Positions 1 through 40,300 of a DNA stretch of 46,061 nt are shown piece after piece (positions within the stretch are counted from its first letter, which is position 1; each line of letters starts with the position of its first letter). Both the position numbers and the translations under genes were made by a program. Under the pieces are notes generated by a model, which saw only the letters and a list, made by a program, of their open reading frames with translations, had not been told where the DNA came from and searched no databases. The stretch covers positions 1-46,061 of the forward strand of contig JAFGHB010000008.1 in NCBI GenBank assembly GCA_016930255.1. Reading direction: 5' to 3'. Origin of the DNA: Methanomicrobia archaeon (GTDB lineage: Archaea; Halobacteriota; Syntropharchaeia; Alkanophagales; Methanospirareceae).

Positions 1-93
1 GGAAAGTTTGATCAAATAGCTTCGCAACAAACTTTAGGAAAGTTTGATCAAATAGCTTCGCAACAAACTTTAGGAAAGTTTGATCAACAACCC
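1..93. repeat. 36-bp tandem repeat, about 2.4 units
   Basis: Bases 1-36 and 37-72 are identical, and a third copy begins at 73 and breaks off near 87. Each unit carries the perfect palindrome TTTGATCAAA (7-16 in unit 1) and inverted ends AAAGTTTG (3-10) and CAAACTTT (28-35) that could form an 8-bp stem. There are no spacers, so this is not a CRISPR array. A decayed relative lies at 1019-1050 on the other side of the toxin-antitoxin pair. The array may continue left of the window. Confidence 0.85.
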
Positions 94-140
94 TTTTCCT
101 CGTTACCACTCGCAAAAGCTTTGACGGGGAATAAACCGTT

Positions 141-165
141 TAGGAAAAGGTTTAATCGAAAAACG
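141..165. repeat. Left copy of a 25-bp direct repeat flanking the first toxin-antitoxin pair
   Basis: Bases 141-165 match 1050-1074 with only two differences. Both copies have the form taggaaaa-G-tttaatc-aaaaacg and both sit just ahead of a wecB fragment. The preceding ataaaccgtt (131-140) recurs at 1005-1014. The two copies bracket the RelBE-type module and appear to be duplicated upstream regions of the same ancestral gene. Confidence 0.75.
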
Positions 166-170
166 CTGCA

Positions 171-458
171 ATGCGCAGAAGAGAAATTCTCCTGATGCGG
201 ATGATTCGAGCATGCGAGCGGCGGAACGAGGAGTATTTCGTTCTGGATACGGGGCAGCAACACTACTTGTGTACCATGGATCGTGTCTTCGTTGAGCGGC
301 TCGGACTCCCTGAAGCTCGTTACAATCTAGACATCGGTTCGGGCACGCACGGCGAGCAGACCGGTAAGAACCTCAGCGGCGTAGAGAAGATTTTGCTAAA
401 AGAACGGCCAGATGTTGTGCTGGTCGAGGGTGACACAAACACACAACCTTTAAATTAG
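171..458 (+). pseudogene. UDP-N-acetylglucosamine 2-epimerase (WecB) fragment
   Basis: This 95-codon fragment matches roughly residues 10-105 of WecB, the non-hydrolysing enzyme that makes UDP-ManNAc for surface glycans. Recognisable pieces are MIRACERRNEEYFVLDTGQ, MDRVF, YNLDIGSG and DVVLVEGDTNT. The start (MRIxxVxGTRP in intact family members) is missing, and the frame stops four codons after GDTNT, so about 70 percent of the usual 360 or so residues are absent. A separate piece of the same gene, residues 1-17, lies at 1089 beyond the toxin-antitoxin pair. It cannot be an active enzyme. Confidence 0.8.
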
Positions 459-496
459 AGTAGCTCTAACTTAGGAATAGTGTTTGATAAGAGGAA

Positions 497-730
497 ATGG
501 AAGTAGAAGAGCGGAATTTGATTAAAGCACTACTGGCAGATGTAGAGGTGCTCAAAGGGAAAGTAGAAGGAATGGAAGGAATGCTTGAAACATTGATTGA
601 GCTCTATACTGATGCGTTCTATGATGCGAAAGAAGAGTATTTTGAGAAATTAGAGAAGATACGAAAAGAAGGGATTTTTGAATCCTTCACGGATATTACC
701 GATTTAAAGAGATTGATCGAGGAAGATTAA
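497..730 (+). CDS. Antitoxin-like protein of a RelBE-type module
   Basis: This is a 77-residue acidic, strongly helical protein with no recognised fold name. Residues 1-45 look like a coiled coil (ALLADVEVLKGKVEGMEGML) and the C-terminus is charged (LKRLIEED). It ends two bases before the toxin gene, which is the usual order of antitoxin then toxin. The likely role is to bind and neutralise the downstream toxin and to repress the pair; this is inferred from size, charge and position. A purine stretch (aagagga) precedes the ATG. The pair sits between two wecB fragments. Confidence 0.65.
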   Translation: MEVEERNLIKALLADVEVLKGKVEGMEGMLETLIELYTDAFYDAKEEYFEKLEKIRKEGIFESFTDITDLKRLIEED

Positions 731-732
731 AC

Positions 733-1008
733 GTGCTTGATTATCATTACAGCATCGAGACGAAGTTAAAAGCAACGTTAAAAAGGACTTATAAAAAGGA
801 TAAGAAGCTCTATGATGCTGTGATAAAAAAGATCGAAGAGATAATGGAGAATCCACACCGTTACAAACCGTTACGGCATGGTTTAAAGGGTTTACGACGG
901 GTTCACCTGAAGAAGTCCTTTGTTTTGGTATTTGAGCTAGATGAAGAGGAGAAGATGGTGCGATTCCTCGATCTTGATCATCATGATGCGATTTATAGGA
1001 AGCGATAA
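733..1008 (+). CDS. RelE/ParE-superfamily toxin
   Basis: This 91-residue basic protein begins at a GTG two bases after the antitoxin stop. It has the RelE/ParE layout: an N-terminal helical hairpin rich in lysine (TLKRTYKKDKKLYDAVIKKI), the ENPHRYKPLRHGLKGLRRVH segment, then strands (KSFVLVFELD, MVRFLDLDHHDAIY) ending YRKR. Relatives are ribosome-dependent mRNA interferases or gyrase inhibitors; which one applies here cannot be told. The final DHHDAIYRKR matches the HDxVY ending common in this superfamily. Confidence 0.8.
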   Translation: MLDYHYSIETKLKATLKRTYKKDKKLYDAVIKKIEEIMENPHRYKPLRHGLKGLRRVHLKKSFVLVFELDEEEKMVRFLDLDHHDAIYRKR

Positions 1009-1018
1009 ACCGTTCTTT

Positions 1019-1074
1019 GGAAAGAAAGCTTTAGCAACAAACTTTTTTTTAGGAAAACGTTTAATCAAAAAACG
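1019..1074. repeat. Decayed 36-bp repeat unit and right copy of the 25-bp direct repeat
   Basis: Bases 1019-1050 keep the ggaaag start and the gcaacaaacttt end of the tandem unit seen at 1-72, with the centre altered. Bases 1050-1074 are the right copy of the 25-bp direct repeat found at 141-165. Together they show that the region upstream of wecB occurs on both sides of the toxin-antitoxin pair. Confidence 0.65.
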
Positions 1075-1088
1075 ACCTTTTTAGAAAG

Positions 1089-1226
1089 ATGAGAATTGCG
1101 AGCGTTCTCGGAACACGCCCGGAGGTAACAAAGATGACGCTGGCGAGCTATCTGGAGCTGGCAAACCGGAGGATGAAGAGGAGGATCAGTAGCAGGAGGA
1201 GAGGGGAAGGGAGATGCGCGTCATGA
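1089..1226 (+). pseudogene. WecB 5' remnant fused to unrelated sequence
   Basis: The ATG at 1089 opens with MRIASVLGTRPEVTKMT, the typical first 17 residues of UDP-GlcNAc 2-epimerase, and then turns into a short arginine-rich stretch that stops at 1226, inside the next gene. It is a second, separate piece of wecB, truncated after about 17 codons. Its upstream sequence repeats that of the first remnant at 171, so the two look like a partial direct duplication with the toxin-antitoxin pair in between. Confidence 0.75.
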
Positions 1227-1969
1227 GGAATAAGAAGCGATACGCGGACCGTTTCGTGGGCACGACACCGAGCGATGAGAAGCAGCTTGAGGACCGGCAG
1301 CAGAAAGTTCTCGCACTTTTTGGTCGCTACAAGTTCGAACGGATTCTGGACGTTGGCTGCGGCGACGGCAACTTTTCAGTTTTGCTACAAGAAGCATGCA
1401 AAGCAGAGGAAGTGTGCGGGCTTGAAATTTCGGCTAAGGGCGTGGAGCTGGCGAGGAGTAACGGAGTTAAGTGCTTGCAGCTTGATGTAGACGAGGATGA
1501 TTTCCCGTTCGAGGCTGAGTATTTCGATGCCGTCTTCGCCGGCGAGGTGATAGAGCATGTATTTGATACGGATCACTTTTTGGATGAGGTTCATAGAATC
1601 TTGAAGCCAGACGGCACGTTTGTCTTGACGACGCCGAATCTGGCTGCTATCCATAACAGGATTGCCTTGCTATTCGGGTATCAACCTTACCCCATGAAAG
1701 TAAGCTTAAATTATGCCCTGGGGCATTTTATTTATCCTGGATGGGGCGCGAGCGAGCATGTAAGAGTGATGACACGTAAAGGCCTCGTAGAACTTTTACG
1801 AGTTCACGGGTTCAAAATAATCCGCATAACCGCATCAGGAATGTCTTTCCCCAAAGACTTTCAACTTTTTGGTTTGAATCTAATCAAGGCGATAGACAAA
1901 CTAATCACCCGATTATTCCCCTCCTTAGGCTATCATTCAATTGTTGAAGTTAAAAGAACAGATGAGTAA
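1214..1969 (+). CDS. Class I SAM-dependent methyltransferase
   Basis: This 251-residue protein has a Rossmann methyltransferase core. The SAM-binding motif I is ILDVGCGDGNF (residues 44-54), an acidic strand-2 end follows (GLEIS), and the later motif AVFAGEVIEHVFD is typical of the Methyltransf_11 group. The C-terminal part (about 150-251) has aromatic and hydrophobic stretches and may contact lipid or glycan. It opens the surface-glycan operon, so the substrate is probably a sugar or lipid-linked glycan. An alternative ATG at 1223 gives MRNKKRYADRF. It overlaps the wecB 5' remnant upstream. Confidence 0.85.
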   Translation: MRVMRNKKRYADRFVGTTPSDEKQLEDRQQKVLALFGRYKFERILDVGCGDGNFSVLLQEACKAEEVCGLEISAKGVELARSNGVKCLQLDVDEDDFPFEAEYFDAVFAGEVIEHVFDTDHFLDEVHRILKPDGTFVLTTPNLAAIHNRIALLFGYQPYPMKVSLNYALGHFIYPGWGASEHVRVMTRKGLVELLRVHGFKIIRITASGMSFPKDFQLFGLNLIKAIDKLITRLFPSLGYHSIVEVKRTDE

Positions 1970-2030
1970 TGAAACCAGCAAGTACTTCTACGGTTCGTTC
2001 TGGATGCTGAATGTGTGGGGACTTAGTTAG
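1962..2030 (+). pseudogene. 5' remnant of a flippase-like gene
   Basis: A 22-codon reading frame starts inside the stop of the methyltransferase gene (ATGA-type overlap), reads MSNETSKYFYGSFWML and stops at 2030. The start resembles the N-terminus of archaeal polysaccharide flippases, where a SKYFxGSFWML-like segment leads into the first membrane span. The rest of such a gene is absent and the next glycosyltransferase starts 40 bases on. The overlap shows the lost gene once belonged to the operon. The family assignment rests on few residues. Confidence 0.4.
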
Positions 2031-2070
2031 GTGCGATGTTCCCAAATTTGAGTTATCGGATCGTAATACT

Positions 2071-3186
2071 ATGTCAAAAATAGTAATAGCCCACGGCGGG
2101 AACATCGGCTTTCTGGGCGGTGGAACCAACAGGGTTTTAACCTTTGCAGGAGCTTTGGCTGAAGCTGGCTATGAGGTTACCTTAGTAGTTCCGAAGCCTC
2201 ACGGAGAAGTCCCTGCGGCTATTCGAAATCGTGTAGAAATTTATACGGTTCCGGTGAAGCCAAAGAGGGTATGGGACCAAGTAGTAAGAGCGATTTTAGT
2301 CTCTCGAAGAGCAAAGAAATTAGCAGAAAAGGATAAAGCACTCTTACAATTGGAGCACTCCACGTTGGGCGGGATTGCCGCGTCGCTGGGTTGCTCAGAG
2401 TATGTGCTGGATGTGCACGATTTAGAGTTTGACGGCTCCCTGTATAAAAAAGTTCCGTTCGGTCCTCGAATTATCCGGTACCTTGAACGGAAAGCGGTGA
2501 GCAATGCATCGAAGATTATCGCGGTCTCGGAGCCGATGAAGGAGTTTTTGGTGCAAGAATGGCACGTGCCGGGGGAAAAGATAGCGGTTATTCCGAACGG
2601 CTATTTTGCCGAGAGGCTGAAGAAATTCACGATAACCGAGGAGGAGAAAGGTTTGATTTCATTTATCGGTGTGCTAACCCATAATGTAGATTACGATAAA
2701 GTTATACGGTTAGCGAAATCACGAGAAGACGTAAGAATATACGTGATAGGGGACGGCCCGATGCACACTCTATTTTTGAAGAAGTTAGAGGAGGAAGGGC
2801 TAAAGAACGTGATAGTGCCCGGATTCCTGCCAGACGACGAAGCGTACCGGATCCTGGCACGGTCACAGGTTTGTATCTTCCCTTTGAGAGACACGGTTCA
2901 CACGAGGGTGGCAATGCACATGAAGACACTGGATTATGCAGCGTTGGGAAAGGCGATTGCAACGGATAGAGATGGAACGGCAGTCATATTCGAGGAGCAT
3001 AATGCGGCACTGGTCTCCGACCCGGCGAAACCTGATGAATTCGTAGCGAACGTGCATCGGCTTTTAGAGGATGCGAAGTTAAGGAGAGAAATGGGCGAAG
3101 ATGCGAAAAAACTCGTGGAGGATTTTACGTGGGCGAAACAGGGGGAGAAGCTGGTGAGGCTTTATGAGAATTATGAGGGGGAATAA
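2071..3186 (+). CDS. Glycosyltransferase family 4 (GT-B fold)
   Basis: From the ATG at 2071 this is a 371-residue protein beginning MSKIVIAHGGNIGFLGGGTN, the usual first strand and glycine loop of GT4 enzymes. An open frame extends back to 2011 but those residues do not resemble the family. Landmarks are DVHDLEF in the N-terminal domain, KIIAVSEPMKEFL, VIPNGYF at the domain hinge, and FPLRDTVHTRVAMHMKTLDY where most family members have an EX7E nucleotide-sugar site, so the donor site is atypical. It likely adds a sugar to a lipid-linked glycan at the inner membrane face. The next gene abuts it directly. Confidence 0.85.
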   Translation: MSKIVIAHGGNIGFLGGGTNRVLTFAGALAEAGYEVTLVVPKPHGEVPAAIRNRVEIYTVPVKPKRVWDQVVRAILVSRRAKKLAEKDKALLQLEHSTLGGIAASLGCSEYVLDVHDLEFDGSLYKKVPFGPRIIRYLERKAVSNASKIIAVSEPMKEFLVQEWHVPGEKIAVIPNGYFAERLKKFTITEEEKGLISFIGVLTHNVDYDKVIRLAKSREDVRIYVIGDGPMHTLFLKKLEEEGLKNVIVPGFLPDDEAYRILARSQVCIFPLRDTVHTRVAMHMKTLDYAALGKAIATDRDGTAVIFEEHNAALVSDPAKPDEFVANVHRLLEDAKLRREMGEDAKKLVEDFTWAKQGEKLVRLYENYEGE

Positions 3187-9350: not shown

Positions 9351-10118
9351 ATGCTGATAAAAATGAAGGAAGGATTGGAGTTCATCAAAATCTGCACGAA
9401 TTGGTACTCAATACTGCCATATTACGTTAGGGATACCCTCTTGCGAAACTGTAAACCCTCAGAAAGCAAAAGAATACTAGTTAAATTACGGAATGGCTGG
9501 AGGTTCTATGCACGGTCCAAAGGACATGACCTTGGGCTTTTGATTGAAATATTTTATCGTGACATTTACAAGTTTCCAAAGAGTAGAATGGACACAGTGG
9601 TAGATATAGGAGCGCAGATAGGTATTTTTTCCTGTCTAGCAGCCAAGTATGCAGATAAAGTCATTGCCATCGAGCCGCATCCTGTAAATTTCTCTTTACT
9701 CCGAGAAAATATGAGATTGAACAACCAACGGAATATTGTTCCGAGCCAGATGGCAGTGTCAGGTAAAAATGGCGTTCAAACCTTATTCCTATCCGAACAG
9801 GGGACTGCGGACCATAGTTTGATCCCTTTTGACACTGAGTCTTTAATTGAAGTAACAACGTGCACTTTAGAACGACTTATTGAGTCATACGAACTTGAAA
9901 GTATCTCTCTTCTGAAAATGGATTGCGAAGGATGCGAGTATGAAGTTTTAAACTCATCACGTAAATTGCTCAATAGAATAGACCGACTTGTTTTGGAATC
10001 TCATCATGGCTATACCGAAGAATTGATTAGGCTTTTAAGAGATGAGGGTTTCGTAGTATCTGTCGAAGACAACTATATTTATGCGTATAGTTGCTCGGGT
10101 AATAATAATATACCCTAA
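9351..10118 (+). CDS. FkbM-family methyltransferase
   Basis: From the ATG at 9351 it has 255 residues; an upstream ATG at 9333 overlaps the previous gene and is also possible. The SAM site is VVDIGAQIGIFSCLAA, with VIAIEPHPVNFSLLREN after it and the family signature LLKMDCEGCEYEVL. FkbM enzymes O-methylate sugars or polyketides, and in glycan operons they usually cap or decorate the chain. It is the last gene of the operon. A decayed copy of its 3' end follows immediately at 10136. Confidence 0.88.
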   Translation: MLIKMKEGLEFIKICTNWYSILPYYVRDTLLRNCKPSESKRILVKLRNGWRFYARSKGHDLGLLIEIFYRDIYKFPKSRMDTVVDIGAQIGIFSCLAAKYADKVIAIEPHPVNFSLLRENMRLNNQRNIVPSQMAVSGKNGVQTLFLSEQGTADHSLIPFDTESLIEVTTCTLERLIESYELESISLLKMDCEGCEYEVLNSSRKLLNRIDRLVLESHHGYTEELIRLLRDEGFVVSVEDNYIYAYSCSGNNNIP

Positions 10119-10242: not shown

Positions 10243-10412
10243 CGAGAGCCGCATTCCCAACCACCCACGCGACCCCGACGCCGATCAAGCCCATCCCCTA
10301 CGCGGCTCGCCCGGCATCAAACGGTACGGTAACGTCGCATCTGAGTGCTGATCGAAACAGGCACCAGAAATCAGGATAGATCCCCCGGCATGAGCTCTTT
10401 CTGCACCCGCTT
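10243..10412 (-). pseudogene. Flippase 3' remnant no. 1
   Basis: Read on the minus strand, one frame gives MGLIGVGVAWVVGNAAL, matching GVIGVGIAWVLGNGI near the C-terminus of the intact flippase at 13168-14439. A shifted upstream frame gives TLPYRLMPGE against LLGSYLLIQ. Bases 10385-10412 are identical over 28 bases to 13332-13359 in the intact gene. It shares an extra stretch (near gcatctgagtgctgatcga) with remnant no. 3 that the intact gene lacks, so nos. 1 and 3 come from a related paralogue. No function is left. Confidence 0.75.
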
Positions 10413-10582
10413 ATTCACGCACCAGCCAAAGTTCAATCTACGTCATGATCTTATCTCATATTCAATCTGCTTCATCCTCATGGTGATAAAGCTATAAACG
10501 GCGGCAGGTAGTGGGAAAAAAGCTTGAGAGGTATACAGCGCAAAACATCAAAGCCGTTTCCCGTGAATACACGCTTCTCTCC

Positions 10583-10828
10583 TCATTTATAAACTCTTTT
10601 CCTGTGCTCGAACTTATGTAAAATTATCAAATCATCCCTGATCTCGTAGAGCATCCTAAAAGGATGAAGTCTAATACTTCTAAATCCAGAAAGGTCGTAT
10701 CTCAATTGCTTTCCAATTTCAGGGTTATCTTTTAGCTTTTGAACGATCTTCTTTATTCTGTCTTGAATCTTCTTATCCTTCACCTTCTGCACATCTCTTT
10801 TGAACTCCTCGGTATAGATTACTCTCAT
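10583..10828 (-). CDS. RelE/ParE-family toxin
   Basis: This 81-residue basic protein has the family layout: MRVIYTEEFKRDVQKVKDKK, two helices, NPEIGKQLRYDLSGFRSIRL, then FRMLYEIRDDLIILHKFEHR ending KRVYK. The LSGFRSIRLHPFRMLYEI block is typical of RelE-type ribonucleases that cleave mRNA on the ribosome. It overlaps the antitoxin gene by 4 bases, giving coupled translation. It is one of three minus-strand toxin-antitoxin modules in this strip, each followed by a flippase 3' remnant. Confidence 0.88.
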   Translation of the reverse strand: MRVIYTEEFKRDVQKVKDKKIQDRIKKIVQKLKDNPEIGKQLRYDLSGFRSIRLHPFRMLYEIRDDLIILHKFEHRKRVYK

Positions 10829-11049
10829 TTCCAGATTTCATCAAGTTCATCAACATTTCTCAATTCGTAAACCCGGCCCTCTGCAATGTCCTTCTTAGAC
10901 CTTTTCAACCCTTCTATCAACTCTTTGTCATTCAATATTTCAATCGTCTCGATCACCGCTTCGAGCTCCTCTTTCAATTTGACCAAGGTATTGAAAGCAT
11001 CGGGACTTAAGGTTAATTCACCTTTCATGGTAGTTTTTATTTCAGCCAT
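10825..11049 (-). CDS. Antitoxin partner of the RelE-type toxin
   Basis: This 74-residue acidic protein begins MAEIKTTMKGELTLSPDAF and continues into a long helix (NTLVKLKEELEAVIETIEIL) and a C-terminal tail rich in acidic residues and aromatics (VYELRNVDELDEIW) of the kind that wraps around a RelE toxin. The family is unnamed to me; the role follows from order, overlap and size. It is the first gene of the pair, so it probably also binds the pair's promoter. Confidence 0.78.
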   Translation of the reverse strand: MAEIKTTMKGELTLSPDAFNTLVKLKEELEAVIETIEILNDKELIEGLKRSKKDIAEGRVYELRNVDELDEIWK

Positions 11050-11115
11050 TTTTCATTACCCGCTTTTATTCGCATCTGCACCACCACTAACTAAGAGTAA
11101 GTTACTTCTTAAACG

Positions 11116-11290
11116 TTAAAAAAGATGTCGTTGAGTATTCGCTCGTAGCACTACCAACCCCACACCACCCGCTACAAGCCCATTCCCCACCACCCATGCA
11201 ATCTCAACGCTGATCACTCCCCTGATCGCTCGGTATCAAAAGGTAACGGAGCACCAAGGTACGCGCGAAACAGCACTAGGAACCAGCGCT
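11116..11290 (-). pseudogene. Flippase 3' remnant no. 2
   Basis: On the minus strand the last open stretch reads GVISVEIAWVVGNGLVAGGV and continues through GLVV to a stop at 11116. This matches the intact flippase C-terminus (GVIGVGIAWVLGNGIVACGV). A shifted frame just upstream gives RYLLIP against SYLLIQ. About 50 codons of homology survive with at least one frameshift. It lies directly upstream of the RelBE-like module in the minus-strand reading direction. Confidence 0.78.
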
Positions 11291-11307
11291 CCAGGGGTAG
11301 GTATAGC

Positions 11308-11402
11308 TTATAGCTCCTCGAGCAGCTCCTTTATCATCTGTTCACCTTCGATTCACGCGTATTCGGCACGTTCTCCCTGTACGGCAGGCCCATGATCAAC
11401 AT
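11308..11402 (-). pseudogene. WecC (UDP-ManNAc dehydrogenase) C-domain fragment
   Basis: The minus strand reads MLIMGLPYRENVPNTRESKV, then after a one-base shift MIKELLEEL and a stop. UDP-sugar 6-dehydrogenases start their C-terminal domain with a very similar block (LGLxYRENVPDTRxSPV followed by IIxELxE). About 30 codons remain. WecC works right after WecB in making UDP-ManNAcA, and wecB is also present only as fragments in this window. The assignment rests on this one block. Confidence 0.6.
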
Positions 11403-11450
11403 CCTTTATCGTTGTCTTGACCTGCTCATTCCTGCTCACTCTGATTGAGC

Positions 11451-11681
11451 TTATCCGACAGCAGCTACCTCTACCTTTACCCTGCCAATGATAAACGCTT
11501 CTTCGGTCGGCATCTCTTCCTTTTCATCCCGTAAAGCCACGAGGTGCGCTTCTATTGCCTCCTTGATAGCGCTCATCGTCTCCTCAATCGTCTCGCCCTG
11601 AGAATAGCAGCCAGGCAGGGTAGGGACTTCGGCCCAAAAACCGCCTTCTTCCGCTTGATAAATCAATACCGTATATTCCAT
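11451..11681 (-). CDS. hicB: HicB antitoxin
   Basis: From the ATG at 11681 the protein has 76 residues; a GTG at 11693 is an alternative that adds four residues. The partial RNase H-like HicB fold is clear: MEYTVLIYQAEEGGFWAEVP, LPGCYSQGETIEETMSAIKE, AIEAHLVALRDEK. No separate DNA-binding domain is visible at the C-terminus, unlike longer HicB proteins. It follows hicA by about 20 bases on the same strand. HicB binds HicA and blocks its RNase activity. Confidence 0.9.
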   Translation of the reverse strand: MEYTVLIYQAEEGGFWAEVPTLPGCYSQGETIEETMSAIKEAIEAHLVALRDEKEEMPTEEAFIIGRVKVEVAAVG

Positions 11682-11700
11682 TCTCTCTCTCACTCACCCC

Positions 11701-11922
11701 CTATTTTAACAATTTCAGGAATTCCCCCTCGGTCAAGCCTGCTTTCTTTAGCGCCGCCTTAAGCAGGCCAATTTTAAGCTCCTTAGAGCGGGGCATCGTA
11801 ATAATTTGGCCATTTGGCATCTTCACGTTGACGTGGTCCCCTTTACCTCCCCTTTCAATGCCACCTGCTTTTACAAAGGCTTTTAGTGCTGCTTCCCCCT
11901 TTATCCCTCTGAGCCGACTCAA
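11701..11922 (-). CDS. hicA: HicA toxin, mRNA interferase
   Basis: This 73-residue protein has the dsRNA-binding-like HicA fold. The N-terminal MSRLRGIKGEAALKAFVKAG helix precedes the catalytic segment GGKGDHVNVKMPNG, in which His30 corresponds to the essential histidine of the GSH motif. The C-terminal IGLLKAALKKAGLTEGEFL helix is typical of the family. HicA cleaves mRNA and tmRNA in bacteria. Toxin before antitoxin is the normal order for this family. An AT-rich upstream region (about 11960-12050) probably contains the promoter. Confidence 0.9.
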   Translation of the reverse strand: MSRLRGIKGEAALKAFVKAGGIERGGKGDHVNVKMPNGQIITMPRSKELKIGLLKAALKKAGLTEGEFLKLLK

Positions 11923-12059
11923 TGCAGATCTCCTCCCGTCCTATTTGTCTCTTATTTGCTCTCACATCAGCCCGTCTCTTGTTCGATATTGTAATAATAT
12001 TGCCCCTACCTTAAATATCCTTGTGCCTTCACAATCCCTCATAATAAACTCCTTTCTCT

Positions 12060-12179
12060 TCAGCCTCTGGGCGGGGGGGGGTTATTGACTATTCCTCTCA
12101 CATCTCTGAGAAGGGGCGCATCGTTCATCATCTTTACCAAATCTTCCTCTTTCGTCTCTGTGAACTCGTTGTGCGCCAT
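12060..12179 (-). other. Short open frame of uncertain status
   Basis: A 39-codon frame from the ATG at 12179 reads MAHNEFTETKEEDLVKMMND and ends with a proline run encoded by a G/C homopolymer near 12066-12074. It follows directly on flippase remnant no. 3, in whose frame it is also open. The acidic helical character recalls small antitoxins, but there is no toxin partner. It may be a gene fragment. Confidence 0.25.
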
Positions 12180-12330
12180 TGCTGCAATGACCACCCACGC
12201 GATCCCCTCCTCACGCCGATCACGCCCCTCCCCTGGCTGCTCGCCCGGCATCAAGAGGTACAGTAACGCCGCATCTGAGTGCTGATCGAGCGAAAACGGC
12301 AGGCACCGGAAACCAGGATCGAGCACCGAT
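12180..12330 (-). pseudogene. Flippase 3' remnant no. 3
   Basis: The minus strand gives ALLYLLMPGE against LLGSYLLIQ of the intact flippase, then GVIGV and, after a frame change, GIAWVV against GIAWVL. It shares with remnant no. 1 a closely similar stretch of about 50 bases around gcatctgagtgctgatcga. It is placed just downstream, in the reading direction, of vapBC, so the order flippase - vapBC - flippase 3' remnant is clear. Confidence 0.7.
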
Positions 12331-12421
12331 CCCCGTTTTGCTACTCTATTGTGTCTCTTGACCCGTTTCAGGGTTGGATATAATGGCTGGCCTTAGGGGT
12401 TTATTCATGTCCCTCTCGCTC

Positions 12422-12838
12422 TCAGCACGTGACCACGTTAACATCTAACTGCTCGAAATGCTTGTCAAATGTATAAATCTCCTCGGCCCCTTTCTTTTTC
12501 ATCATAAGATAAGCAAGGGCATCATTAATACTAATTCGCTTCTCTTCTGCCAGTAAAACACTTTCTATGTACTGAGTATCGCTCACCTGCTCAACAATAA
12601 TATTGCTCTTAAGCACGAGATCCTTCACGAAGGAGATCGAAAAAGTCAGATTGGCGGCGTCCTCCATGACGTTTGCAACCTCGCTCAAGTGCACCACGGT
12701 TGTCAGTACTTCTTCACCCGCGTTTACACGCATGAAAATCTCTTTTGAGGCACTCTTTAGTCGCTGCTCTTCTTCGTTTAGTGCTCTCCTCGGTTTTAGC
12801 ACCGCGTAGATGAAAACGTTTGTATCTATGAACCTCAT
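12422..12838 (-). CDS. vapC: VapC toxin, PIN-domain ribonuclease
   Basis: This 138-residue PIN-domain protein begins MRFIDTNVFIYAVLK. The acidic residues expected to bind Mg2+ are present: Asp5 (IDTN), Glu53 (HLSEVANV), Asp106 (INDALAY) and Asp125 (IYTFDKHF). VapC toxins cleave tRNA or rRNA at specific sites. It overlaps vapB by 4 bases. The length matches archaeal VapC of the PF01850 type. Confidence 0.92.
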   Translation of the reverse strand: MRFIDTNVFIYAVLKPRRALNEEEQRLKSASKEIFMRVNAGEEVLTTVVHLSEVANVMEDAANLTFSISFVKDLVLKSNIIVEQVSDTQYIESVLLAEEKRISINDALAYLMMKKKGAEEIYTFDKHFEQLDVNVVTC

Positions 12839-13056
12839 TTCTTCCTCAGTTCCTTCCTCAGCTCGTGATAGTCATCAAACGTTCCAACCTCCACTTCTAC
12901 CGAATCCACATATTTTGACAAATCTACGTCCCGCGGGAAGATCTCAACCTTCTCCCCCCTCTCCACGACCACCATCTCGTCGTCCCCCCGTCGCCGCCAC
13001 GAAATGGGCAACACAATCCTTCCATGGGAATCTATCTTCTTTACTTCCACTTTCAT
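12835..13056 (-). CDS. vapB: VapB antitoxin, AbrB/SpoVT fold
   Basis: This 73-residue protein has the N-terminal swapped-hairpin DNA-binding fold: MKVEVKKIDSHGRIVLPISW, then VVVERGEKVEIFPRD. The C-terminal acidic part (VEVEVGTFDDYHELRKELRK) should bind VapC. The unusual IDSHGRIVLPISWRR replaces the more common DxxGRIxIPKxxR pattern but keeps the GRI-LP core. The upstream AT-rich segment at 13057-13105 probably holds its own operator. Confidence 0.88.
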   Translation of the reverse strand: MKVEVKKIDSHGRIVLPISWRRRGDDEMVVVERGEKVEIFPRDVDLSKYVDSVEVEVGTFDDYHELRKELRKK

Positions 13057-13167
13057 GCGTGATCACCAGTTTATCTATTAACTTCCCACTATTTAAACCT
13101 TGCTCCCGTCTGGCAAGGTCAAAGCTCCTTGCCATGTCTTATCCATCGCCTCATTCCCACCAATTCT

Positions 13168-14439
13168 TTAACCACGCCTGAACCCCTTCATCACTACCAA
13201 CCCCACACCACACGCCACAATCCCGTTTCCGAGCACCCACGCAATTCCAACGCCGATCACGCCCATACGCTGTATGAGCAGATAACTTCCCAGCAGGGTG
13301 AGCAGCGCCGTGCCGCCAGAAACCAAAATCACCGGCATGAGCTCTTTCTGCACCCGCTTTATCGTTGTGTATATGGTGTTTAACGCAACCGGAACGCTAC
13401 CGAGCGCTAAAATCGCTAAGACCTCGAACGAGTTCTGGACATACGCCTCGCCGAAGAGCCAGAGCACGTATCTCCCCAGCAGCACAATACCAATTATCGC
13501 CGCTCCAAGCAGCAGCGCGATAAATTTCACGGCTCTTCTTGTGTTGCGGCTCAGTTCTGCTCTGCTGTACGAACCTTCGGTCAGCAACGATTTCGCGGTG
13601 GCGCCTGGAATGACGAGCAATAAGCCCACAGTCGCCCAGGCAATGAAGAAATAGGCGTTCTTTTCCGGGCCTAAGATATTCACCACCAGGAGCGGCAGAA
13701 CCACGCCCGGAAGAGCCTCGAAGAGCCGCGCTATGTAGTTGCCCGCGGAGAACCGGAAAACGGCCGCGATCACGTCTCGGTTTATCCGTGGGCGCGGTTT
13801 GTAGCCTGATACCAGTCTCGAGGTCAAGAAAAGGCCTAATCCTACCGCAAGAACAGAGGTTACTCCGGACGCAGCGTAAATCCCCACCGCACCGTAGGCT
13901 ACCAGGAATGGAACCACACCAAGCCGGGCAAAGGTCACGACCGTTTGATACAGGGAATATTTGGTCGTTCGGAATCCTACAAAGACGCCCTGGCTCTGGA
14001 GTGCACCCAGCGGCGCTAGAACGGTGAAAACAATAAAGAGCAGCAGTAACGCCGTATGCTCTTTTATGATACGTAAGGACGGGCTCCAGAGTCCAAGTCC
14101 TGCAATGAAAATCACTGTCAACGCAAGTGCAACAAAAAACGAGATCGTGAGGCACGAGTTGATCAGTTCGTTCTTCTCCGCCCGTTCCGGTATGAACCGC
14201 ACCAGCGAGATATCGAAACCCAGCAGCGAGAGCGTCGAGATCAAGCCCATCGCTGCAATAAGAGCTGAGGCTAAGCCTACCGCCTCTGCGGAATAAAACC
14301 GTGCGGCGATGAGCCAGAAGAAGAAGCCCGAACCTGCGCTCGTTACCGATGAGAGCATCAAGAAATACGCGTTCTTGAAGAGCGGATCGCTCACGTGCTG
14401 CTTTACCTCTTCCCGGTTCTTCGGTAGCCAGATTCTCAT
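13168..14439 (-). CDS. Polysaccharide flippase (Wzx/MOP superfamily)
   Basis: This 423-residue protein has about 12 membrane spans. The N-terminus (SDPLFKNAYFLMLSSVTSAG followed by FFFWLIAARFY) and GLASALIAAMGLISTLSLLG are typical of archaeal O-antigen and teichoic-acid type flippases, which move lipid-linked oligosaccharides across the membrane. The C-terminus is GVIGVGIAWVLGNGIVACGV followed by a short basic tail. It is the only intact flippase here and would serve the glycan genes on both sides. Three decayed 3' ends of related flippase genes lie downstream, alternating with toxin-antitoxin modules. Confidence 0.9.
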   Translation of the reverse strand: MRIWLPKNREEVKQHVSDPLFKNAYFLMLSSVTSAGSGFFFWLIAARFYSAEAVGLASALIAAMGLISTLSLLGFDISLVRFIPERAEKNELINSCLTISFFVALALTVIFIAGLGLWSPSLRIIKEHTALLLLFIVFTVLAPLGALQSQGVFVGFRTTKYSLYQTVVTFARLGVVPFLVAYGAVGIYAASGVTSVLAVGLGLFLTSRLVSGYKPRPRINRDVIAAVFRFSAGNYIARLFEALPGVVLPLLVVNILGPEKNAYFFIAWATVGLLLVIPGATAKSLLTEGSYSRAELSRNTRRAVKFIALLLGAAIIGIVLLGRYVLWLFGEAYVQNSFEVLAILALGSVPVALNTIYTTIKRVQKELMPVILVSGGTALLTLLGSYLLIQRMGVIGVGIAWVLGNGIVACGVGLVVMKGFRRG

Positions 14440-37334: not shown

Positions 37335-40300
37335 TGGTTTTGCATAAAATGATCCGTGATGGAGAAGAGGAAAAGCGTATATCGAAGAAGTTTGCCGTAT
37401 TTCTGGTACTGGCTATCCTGCTTGCTCCACTTGGTGCGATCGGGGAGGACGTCTTATCAGGAAATGTGACCCTGGGTAATGATACCAATCTCACTTTAAC
37501 TGAGGAGCAAGGTGTTGCTGTGAATGCACCCGTAAACGAGACGACGGACGGAACCGCTAATTCGAGTGCCGAGACGACCACCGCGACTGCGAATTTCAGT
37601 ATCTCGCGCCAATTACCACGGGCCTGGCCGCTCGGTGCTGGCCCCAACTCGACCCTCTATGTCAATCTCTCGGGCTGGTGGCGCATAAATGGCACGTTCA
37701 ACCAGTCGGACACTCCAATCCAGTCAGCGGTCGACAATGCGACCTCCGGGGACACCATTATCGTGACAGATGGCACATACACCGAGAACGTGAATGTGAC
37801 CACGGCAAACCTCACGCTCCGCTCGGAGAACGGCTTTGCTTCAACGATCGTGCAGGCCTTGGATCCAGACGAGCACGTCTTCAACGTGACCGCGGATTAC
37901 GTGAACATCAGCGGGTTCACGGTGCAAGGTGTAACCGGCTCTGAAAAGGCAGGGATATATCTTTATTGGGTGGAGTACTGCAACATCTCCGATAACGTCG
38001 CCACGAACAACGACCGCGGCATTTACCTGAAGGATTCGAGCAGCAACAACCTTACGGGCAACAACGCCTCGAACAATTTAGGGGGCATTTACCTGGATTC
38101 TTCGAGCAACAACATGCTCACGAACAACACCGTCAACTCGAACGACGATGGCATTTTCCTGGATGTTTCGAGCAGCAACAACCTTACGGGCAACATCGTT
38201 ACTTCGAACTACTGGTGGGGCATTTTGTTGGGGGAAGCGAGCAACAATAGGTTAACGAACAATACATTTGTGAATAATGGCCTATTTGTTACTAATTCTT
38301 TTGGCAGCACGGTAACGGATAACACGGTAAACGACAAGCCGCTTGTTTATCGTGAGGAGGTTTCAGATCAGAGCATTACCGTAGCAGGGCAGGTTATACT
38401 CGTTAATTGTGACAATATTACGGTTGAGAATCTCGAGATATTAAATGATGCATCAGTTGGCGTAGAGCTCTGGGGAACTGACAACAGTACAATCATGAAT
38501 ATTACTGCCTCGGGCTGCTACAACGACTACGGCATTTATCTGGCTGATTCATGCAACAATGCTCTTATAGCCAACACGTTCTCGCACGCCTACAACGGCA
38601 TCGTCCTGGATCATTCGAGCAACAACAATAATCTGACAGGCAACAACGCCTCGAACAACCCGGGCCCCGGCATTGCGCTGTTTTATTCGAGCAACAACAC
38701 ACTCACGAACAACACCGCCAACTCGAACATGAATCACGGCATTTATCTAAAGTCTTCGAGCAGCAACAATCTGATGGGCAATACCGCTAACTCGAACAAT
38801 ATAGGGGGCATTTACCTGGTGGATTCTTCGAGCTACAACACACTCACCAACAATACCGCTAACTCGAACATGAATCACGGCATTTCTCTGGATCTTTCAA
38901 GCAGCAACAACCTGACGGGCAATAACGCCACGAACAACGATAATGGCATCCACTTGAACGGCTCAGGAAGCAACACCCTCGTGGGTAACAATTGCTCGGG
39001 GAACGATGGCGCGGGCATCTACCTGATTTGTTCTAGCGATAACAACGAACTCCTGGATAACTTCTGTAATGGGAACAGTTGGATCGGCATCGTCCTGTCC
39101 TCAGGGGATAATAACGTCCTTTCACGCAATACCTGCAAAGAGAATCACTACGGTATTTGGGTATACCTGGGCATCAACAATACACTGGTGAGCAATACCT
39201 GCACTGAGAATAATTATGTAGGAATCGAGCTGTATGGAACATATGATAACACCCTTCTGGATAACAACGCCAGCTCGAACCTCTGCTTGGATGACCTTGA
39301 CCTCAATTATGCGGGCATCAACCTGAAATGGGCGTGCAATAACAATCTCACGAACAACACCGCCAACGCGAACGCCAACGCGGGCATTCACCTCGACGTT
39401 GATTCGAACAGCAACGTGCTGGCGCATAACACCGCCACAGACAATAATCGCACTGGCATCTTACTCACCACCAGCTCGAACAACAAGCTGACCGCTAACA
39501 CCGCAAGCAATAACACTGCAGAGTGGGACTCGAAGGGGATAGTCCTCGAAAAAGGCTCGAACAACAACGCGCTCCGCGATAACGTGGCCAATACTAACGG
39601 CGAGTACGGTATCTACCTCAATTCTTCGAGCAACGATAACAACCTTACAGGCAATACCGTCTCGAACAACAACTACGACGGCATTTACCTCTACCTTGCA
39701 CACCGCAACCACATCTACAACAATACCGCCTCGAACAACTTCAACTACGGCATTTATCTGTCTTCTTCGGGCAACAATCATATCTACGACAATTACTTTG
39801 ACAATACTCATAACGCTTATGACGACCCTGGAATTCATGAGGACAACATCTGGAATACCACTAGGACTGAGGGCACGAACATCATCGGTGGTCCGTATTT
39901 AGGTGGCAATTACTGGAGCGATTACACTGGCAGCGATACGGACGGCGACGGACTCGGTGAAACTCCTTACAACATATCGGGCGACTCGAACAGGGATTAT
40001 TTACCGTTAACCACTCCGACCTTGATTTCCATTAATCTCAGCACCGATACGGTCTCCTACGGGTTTGTTGCAGCAGGAGAGAATAGCACTTCTCAGATCA
40101 TCACGGTGACCAATGCCGGCACGGTGAACGAGACCTTTTATATCCGGGGCGACGACGCCTACTACGAGGTCTCTACGTGGACGCTCGCCGAGAGTATTGG
40201 GACAAACGCTTTCACTCACGAGTTTAATAACGGCACCGAGTGGAGTTGCCTGAACAAGACTGATAAAACGCTCGCACTAGACGTGCCCGTTGAGGGCAAT

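Follow-up and report, generated by a model that had tools for sequence, protein, structure and literature searches.

How do chromosomal toxin-antitoxin (TA) pairs spread without a transposon, a phage or an integron? This open question is raised by the left end of the window, i.e., the whole stretch of 46,061 nucleotides analysed here, where a TA pair lies between two pieces of wecB. The window is bases 1-46061 of contig C8 in the genome (2.23 Mb, 87 contigs) of a methane-oxidising archaeon of the family ANME-1/Methanophagales. A first-pass annotation saw in this locus a partly duplicated wecB, produced by a crossover with a circular TA molecule. Our results suggest another origin, which we consider rather probable: a composite insertion of a mobile TA cassette, with a long duplication of the target.

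A toxin-antitoxin pair inside two frames

The features of the left end, all on the forward strand, are the following.

1-87 (+): 2.4 perfect copies of a 36-bp tandem unit, a dispersed hairpin element; this contig end is common to contig C19
88-165 (+): more dispersed-element sequence; includes the left copy of a 25-bp repeat (139-165)
171-443 (+): wecB piece, gene nucleotides ~33-294 (residues ~14-98), without the gene start; the ORF continues to 458
445-496 (+): 5' edge of the putative TA cassette, where homology to other TA loci starts; holds CAACCTTTAAAT, promoter-like by eye
497-730 (+): antitoxin-like ORF, 77 aa
733-1008 (+): toxin of the RelE/ParE superfamily (YafQ-like), 91 aa
1005-1087 (+): dispersed element between the toxin stop and the wecB ATG; includes the right 25-bp copy (1048-1074)
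1089-1139 (+): wecB start, residues 1-17 (nucleotides 1 to ~55), fused at a AAGATGACGC-like microhomology to a small-ORF tail
1131-1309 (+): right copy of an outer duplication, small-ORF tail and methyltransferase start
1214-1969 (+): complete methyltransferase downstream of the block; the target gene is intact

The enclosed pair (497-730 and 733-1008), annotated as a complete TA pair, is TA-like. The toxin passes the ParE_toxin model PF05016 (36.4 bits, cut-off 23) and resembles YafQ (TIGR00053, E 1e-19, 70.9 bits, under the cut-off of 87.25). The 77-aa antitoxin has no Pfam match above cut-off. Of 29 toxin loci, window included, 11 have a homologue of this antitoxin next to the toxin (E < 1e-16), all of them among the closer homologues. 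By its toxin model and its conserved upstream antitoxin, the pair can be classed as a putative type II RelE/ParE system. PADLOC found no match among seven TA-related proteins. Homology to other TA loci begins at 445, straight after the homology to wecB stops at 443.

The two wecB pieces cover different parts of the gene. The stretch 171-458 matches positions 14-98 of the WecB model TIGR00236 (E 3e-17), while the ORF starting at 1089 matches positions 1-17 with only 12 bits (E 0.08) and is 65% identical to intact WecB (tblastn E 2.5e-4). The window holds these two ranges only, and hence no full-length WecB (UDP-GlcNAc 2-epimerase). In the ORF 1089-1226, residues 1-17 are followed by the end of an unrelated small ORF, which has its other copy on contig C19. 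When compared with intact wecB from five loci, the left piece starts at nucleotide 32-45 and ends at 293-294, and the right one runs from the start to about nucleotide 55. Since these breakpoints leave only ~22 bp in common, we read the pieces as complementary and circularly permuted around the TA pair, more than duplicated. The partial duplication of wecB initially annotated holds for the presence of pieces on both sides and fails for their content (nucleotides ~33-294 against 1 to ~55, overlapping by ~22 bp). When aligned directly beyond the 25-bp repeat, the two pieces score at chance level, 59 of 300 shuffles reaching the same score. The window's own genome has no wecB above the model cut-off.

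The outer frame becomes visible when the contig end is resolved. The window spans contig C8 from its base 1, which is therefore a contig end and falls within the 36-bp array. Elsewhere in the genome, the array (up to 3 mismatches) occurs only at the end of contig C19, and there the two contigs share a 75-bp exact overlap in the same orientation. For these reasons C19 is very probably the true left neighbour of C8. The dependence of this join on a 75-bp overlap in a repeat weighs against the composite insertion. The order across the join is, on C19, a nucleotidyltransferase-like ORF (named by eye, without Pfam match), a 78-aa ORF and a truncated methyltransferase start, and, on C8, the 36-bp array, the wecB piece (nucleotides ~33-294), the TA pair (497-1008), the dispersed element, the wecB start (nucleotides 1 to ~55) fused to the end of another copy of the 78-aa ORF, and, last, the complete methyltransferase (1214-1969).

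Positions 9464-9608 of the C19 stretch (L039) match window positions 1131-1309 with 72.6% identity over 179 columns (E 1.5e-31). This direct duplication of 145-179 bp combines the end of the 78-aa ORF with the first ~30 methyltransferase codons; the wecB-TA-wecB block appears to sit at this duplicated methyltransferase start. The wecB start joins the outer copy at a AAGATGACGC-like word, and intact wecB has a similar word, which is compatible with a microhomology join. The frame of the truncated methyltransferase remains open through the array (12 codons per unit; L039 9519-9707), and the two may therefore be translated as a repeat protein.

Direct duplications around toxin-antitoxin loci

Homologous TA loci in relatives lay between copies of other genes, e.g., flippase starts on both sides of TA loci in G035 and G066, and we therefore tested flanks of up to 1500 bp per side of the gene systematically with blastn (word size 7, maximum E 1e-5, minimum length 50 bp). 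In ANME-1/Methanophagales, direct duplications flanked 29 of 101 testable RelE/ParE loci (toxin homologues 10/23; PF05016 loci 5/23 and 14/55) and 7 of 27 HicA loci. The controls gave 0/25 for Usp, 0/24 for Y1_Tnp and 9/114 for random positions. Inverted duplications were absent from every survey set. The excess at TA loci (36/128) is significant against Usp and Y1_Tnp together (0/49; Fisher test, p 1.7e-6) and against random positions (p 3.4e-5). RelE/ParE loci elsewhere in Halobacteriota showed 11/58 (2/20 and 9/38), a frequency close enough to 29/101 (p 0.12) to weaken the idea that the framing is specific to the family. A flippase-start remnant sought beside 14 TA loci was found at the nucleotide level in three (G035, G014, G070).

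These counts have known limits. Independent events must be fewer than 29, because direct repeats may be native in several positives, those located in repeat-domain genes (L150, L304, probably L167 and L198), and because others share a target (L299/L309, L157/L164). Two results also argue against the composite insertion: random positions carry direct duplications as well (9/114), and the inner frame of the window fails the 50-bp duplication test, its locus at 733 (27-bp repeat) being one of the 72 misses. The window locus at 10589 is positive in this test.

The loci entered the survey in several ways. Sets B, HicA, Usp and Y1_Tnp are those returned by searches, up to 30 each. Set C consists of 59 PF05016 places hand-picked for their distance from the contig start, with one place of G009:C23 omitted, and the PF05016 loci L189 and L196, already in set A, were excluded. 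Another 40 loci outside the family were hand-picked from a wider match list, as were, on contigs of known length, the stretches for the random positions (set D). Loci with less than 600 bp to the left or 300 bp to the right of the gene were untestable and dropped: 6/29 in set A, 5/28 in B, 4/59 in C, 6/30 for Y1_Tnp, 3/30 for HicA, 5/30 for Usp, and 3/23 and 2/40 outside the family. The 114 random positions supersede an earlier control, in which 579 overlapping positions gave 16 direct and 0 inverted duplications; that control was dropped because 7-8 of its matches surrounded further TA pairs of the window and because its positions were interdependent.

The geometry of the frames is a stronger point than the counts. 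In 23 of the 101 loci the frame is tight, i.e., the left copy ends 180-560 bp ahead of the toxin, which leaves space for roughly one antitoxin gene, and the right copy starts at most 400 bp after it. Set C has 12/53 tight frames centred on the TA pair and 0/78 with the centre moved 1.3 kb to either side.

This bears on the possibility that TA pairs are bystanders, merely located in glycan clusters that rearrange often with the help of dispersed hairpins. Broken wecB genes in several relatives, the abundance of hairpin elements and the duplications at random positions (9/114) would all fit. Yet, the shift by 1.3 kb within the same regions abolishes the tight frame (12/53 against 0/78), transposase and Usp loci show no direct duplication at all, and the targets extend beyond glycan clusters, e.g., to HsdR. 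We consider it quite unlikely that TA pairs are bystanders.

We analysed the anatomy of the frames in 30 cases: 23 RelE/ParE loci of the family, 2 HicA loci, 2 loci from outside the family and 3 added by hand from an unbiased scan. The duplicated stretch is 46-391 bp long (median 107), and its copies are 74-97% alike (84-97% in L359, L161, L237, L249 and L298). Between the copies lies a gap of 475-915 bp (median 644), which roughly matches a TA pair in size and contained one in the cases read. In 23/30 cases the gap is lower in GC than its locus. The copied stretch often contains a gene start (L145, L161, L257, L259, L357) or a gene end (L171, L306, L308, L359), and as a consequence one long ORF continues on one side; L298 has both an end and a start within one 50-bp stretch. 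No conserved cassette ends were evident by eye at the framed junctions.

The unbiased scan covered 428 kb, window included, and returned 24 direct pairs of repeats 200-2000 bp apart, several of them overlapping, and 0 inverted pairs. Their gaps include a VapBC-like pair (L237, G014), RhuM at the start of HsdR (L249) and UPF0175/DUF3368 pairs (L251); the remaining ones hold repeat-domain proteins, paralogues or unclear ORFs. The RhuM gene (L249 3856-5111) is flanked by two copies of the HsdR start (92%, 171 bp). Within the window, tandem repeats with units of 66-141 bp, probably part of a repeat-domain gene, occupy positions 38000-39670.

Some loci carry several TA pairs in a row, including a second example in the window.

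10254-13264 (-): RelBE pair 10583-11049, HicAB pair 11451-11922, VapBC-like pair 12422-13056

These three pairs lie downstream of a flippase gene (13168-14439) and are separated by decayed copies of its 3' end (10254-10412, 11149-11221, 12190-12322). Similarly, L251 has about five TA-like cassettes between 12264 and 17704, each adjoining a copy of one gene start, from a gene with a weak polysaccharide-deacetylase match; four of these copies begin no more than 10 nt from the start codon, and three of them stop at nt 343. That different TA pairs have the same separator points either to recombination among copies or to several insertions at a single site.

Direct observations comprise the frames with their tight geometry and direct orientation, and their overrepresentation at TA pairs with varied target genes. 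The arrangement is not peculiar to wecB: further targets and TA pairs of other families show it too. It is also very improbable that it reflects chimeric joins at repeats in metagenome assemblies. In favour of such an artefact, the window starts in a repeat at a contig end, but paired copies differ by 3-26%, and the pattern is found inside a 1.19-Mb contig (G014: L359 97%, L237 94%) and, outside the family, in contigs of more than 2 Mb (G158 L413, G175 L430).

Proposed insertion of the cassette and its alternatives

The composite insertion would have taken place in steps. A RelE/YafQ-type TA pair of ~0.6 kb with its own promoter would once have resided at the start of a wecB gene. The pair, together with pieces of this old target, would then have been carried to the methyltransferase start and inserted with a direct target duplication of 145-179 bp, leaving the methyltransferase whole downstream and a truncated copy upstream, at the end of C19. 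The duplication would be produced by the insertion itself. Recombination between the two copies could then release a circle of TA pair and target. Such a circle would account for the circular permutation of wecB, and killing of cells that delete the cassette would keep these unstable duplications in the genome. The circle is the weakest step, because two truncations could also meet by chance, and we hold it only tentatively.

Related TA pairs adjoin wecB, in either order, in four other genomes (L123 in G005, L124 in G014, L125 in G010, L133 in G035), as if pieces of the old target travelled with the pair. Relatives with a fuller wecB had been predicted to lack the TA pair, and this prediction was contradicted: G005 and G014 have a pair of the same family just upstream of wecB. 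In G010, G009 and G019 (L126, L127, L128), wecB is split into several pieces.

A single crossover of a chromosomal wecB in this position with a circular TA molecule that held part of wecB, and subsequent decay, would account for wecB pieces on either side of the TA pair, and the same-family pairs beside wecB in G005, G014, G010 and G035 speak for it. Nevertheless, this explanation seems improbable, given that the outer flanks on both sides are a methyltransferase/small-ORF locus and not wecB, that the wecB pieces have only ~22 bp in common, and that the 25-bp repeat is a dispersed element. What survives of the crossover first proposed is the integration of TA DNA carrying a wecB piece, possibly from a circle, which fits the permuted pieces; the chromosomal partner was probably not wecB.

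The TA pair might also have been inserted where it now lies, at the start of wecB, with a duplication of ~300 bp, followed by independent decay of both wecB copies and by a separate, later duplication of the methyltransferase start. The frame reconstructed in this manner (139 to 443 duplicated, gap ~600 bp) is within the family-wide size ranges, and the pair of 25-bp repeats would belong to the duplication. Such a history requires two unrelated truncations to fall within ~22 bp in the gene, and an unrelated outer duplication in addition, which makes it unlikely, if somewhat less so than the single crossover. We retain the composite insertion. Against it, no empty site, i.e., target without the insert, was found among the survey loci, where the single match was another TA-bearing locus.

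The closest known process concerns restriction-modification (RM) systems, some of which duplicate a long target stretch of variable length, around 100 bp, when they insert, according to a passage of PMC3874152 (citing Nobusato 2000 and Furuta 2010). The stabilisation by TA pairs is discussed in PMC2654758, where Nobusato 2000 is cited for RM systems, and PMC3031569 suggests that other post-segregational systems could behave like RM systems. The likeness to the RM insertions of that passage lies in an addiction-type unit, the apparent lack of a linked transposase and a direct, variable target duplication of ~100 bp; here the duplications are 46-391 bp (median 107) in the 30 cases and 145-179 bp in the outer frame of this locus. 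The units differ, being type II TA pairs (RelE/ParE, HicAB, VapBC-like, UPF0175/PIN-like) in archaea, whereas the passage of PMC3874152 describes RM systems and not TA pairs. We found no type II TA pairs with long target duplication described in the open-access literature searched, mostly titles and the beginnings of abstracts. On the best reading, by analogy, the framing would reflect a variant of the insertion with long target duplication reported for RM systems.

The arrays recall the superintegron TA cassettes discussed in PMC2654758, where different TA pairs stand in a row with similar separators, but here the separators are locus-specific fragments of the local target (the flippase 3' end, the deacetylase-like start). 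The same discussion in PMC2654758 includes the proposal that TA pairs stabilise repeat-rich DNA. The signature described here offers a simple reason for the persistence of long direct duplications around TA pairs, because recombination between the copies would delete the antitoxin. Recurrent and statistically supported, this putative signature of insertion would identify recent events together with their targets, and it predicts that empty sites and circular intermediates exist.

A more general model would see chromosomal type II TA pairs as transposase-free mobile cassettes. They would insert with a long duplication of gene starts or ends and in this way leave the target gene whole; recombination between the copies would release circles of TA pair and target which, once re-inserted, record their previous site in a permuted fragment of its gene; integron-like TA arrays would arise by recombination between copies in common; and post-segregational killing would maintain the duplications. 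Taken as a whole, this model is doubtful, more so than its circle step at this locus.

Dispersed hairpin elements at the locus

The 25-bp direct repeat reported on both sides of the TA pair is present at 139-163 and 1048-1072, with 2 mismatches and 0 expected by chance in shuffles; a longer alignment (139-165 and 1048-1074) has 25 of 27 bp alike. The tandem-repeat unit said to accompany it on both sides is tandem only on the left (2.4 perfect 36-bp copies, 1-87), the right side having a dispersed, non-tandem element (~1005-1087). The hairpin element in 1-87 reads CAAACTTT-AGG-AAAGTTTG, then ATCAAA..GCTTCGCA. Sequence 88-163 resembles that of a relative (G041) at 78%, and the element at 1005-1087 has matches of 74-89% at many places in relatives.

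The window genome holds the 25-mer three times (up to 3 mismatches), two of them at this locus. The two may therefore be parts of an old duplication or independent elements. Window DNA matches 36 of 59 genomes, mostly in its repeat parts, and the hairpin core of the neighbouring 36-bp unit (up to 3 mismatches) is found in 46 of 51 family genomes; the reversed core pattern, in the same search of 51 genomes, gave none. The repeat is thus not a mark of wecB. Copies spread widely and unlinked to wecB had been named as evidence against the crossover, and the dispersal of related elements through the family goes part of the way.

We rejected the hairpins as insertion ends, because most framed loci lack them at the junctions examined. 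Mobilisation by a Y1 (REP-type) transposase is unsupported here: 29/51 family genomes have a Y1 transposase match and the window's own genome has none.

Dispersed palindromic repeats include REP/BIME, BOX/RUP and the Rickettsia palindromic elements. The hairpin resembles them as a short genome-wide element, single or in tandem, and differs in being, at exact match, nearly restricted to ANME-1-type records in GTDB r220 and in having no relevant Rfam match; in comparison with REP-type elements, the window genome is also without a Y1 transposase match. Rfam gave nothing relevant for L251 at the gathering cut-off or for window 1-3000 with E values up to 5, and the viral_contigs collection had no exact match to the hairpin core.

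The palindromic element of ANME-1 genomes has the form CAAACTTT-AGG-AAAGTTTG-ATCAAAANGCTTCGCA, and occurs in the window within 1-165 and 1005-1087. In some copies both sides of the stem are altered, e.g., CAAGCTTT/AAAGCTTG. An exact, strict search for the hairpin repeat in GTDB r220 returned 31 stretches, nearly all in records of the ANME-1/Methanophagales type, some of them otherwise labelled. One such record, L055, is labelled Candidatus Nitrosotalea and is probably mislabelled, since it contains the exact ANME-1 repeat.
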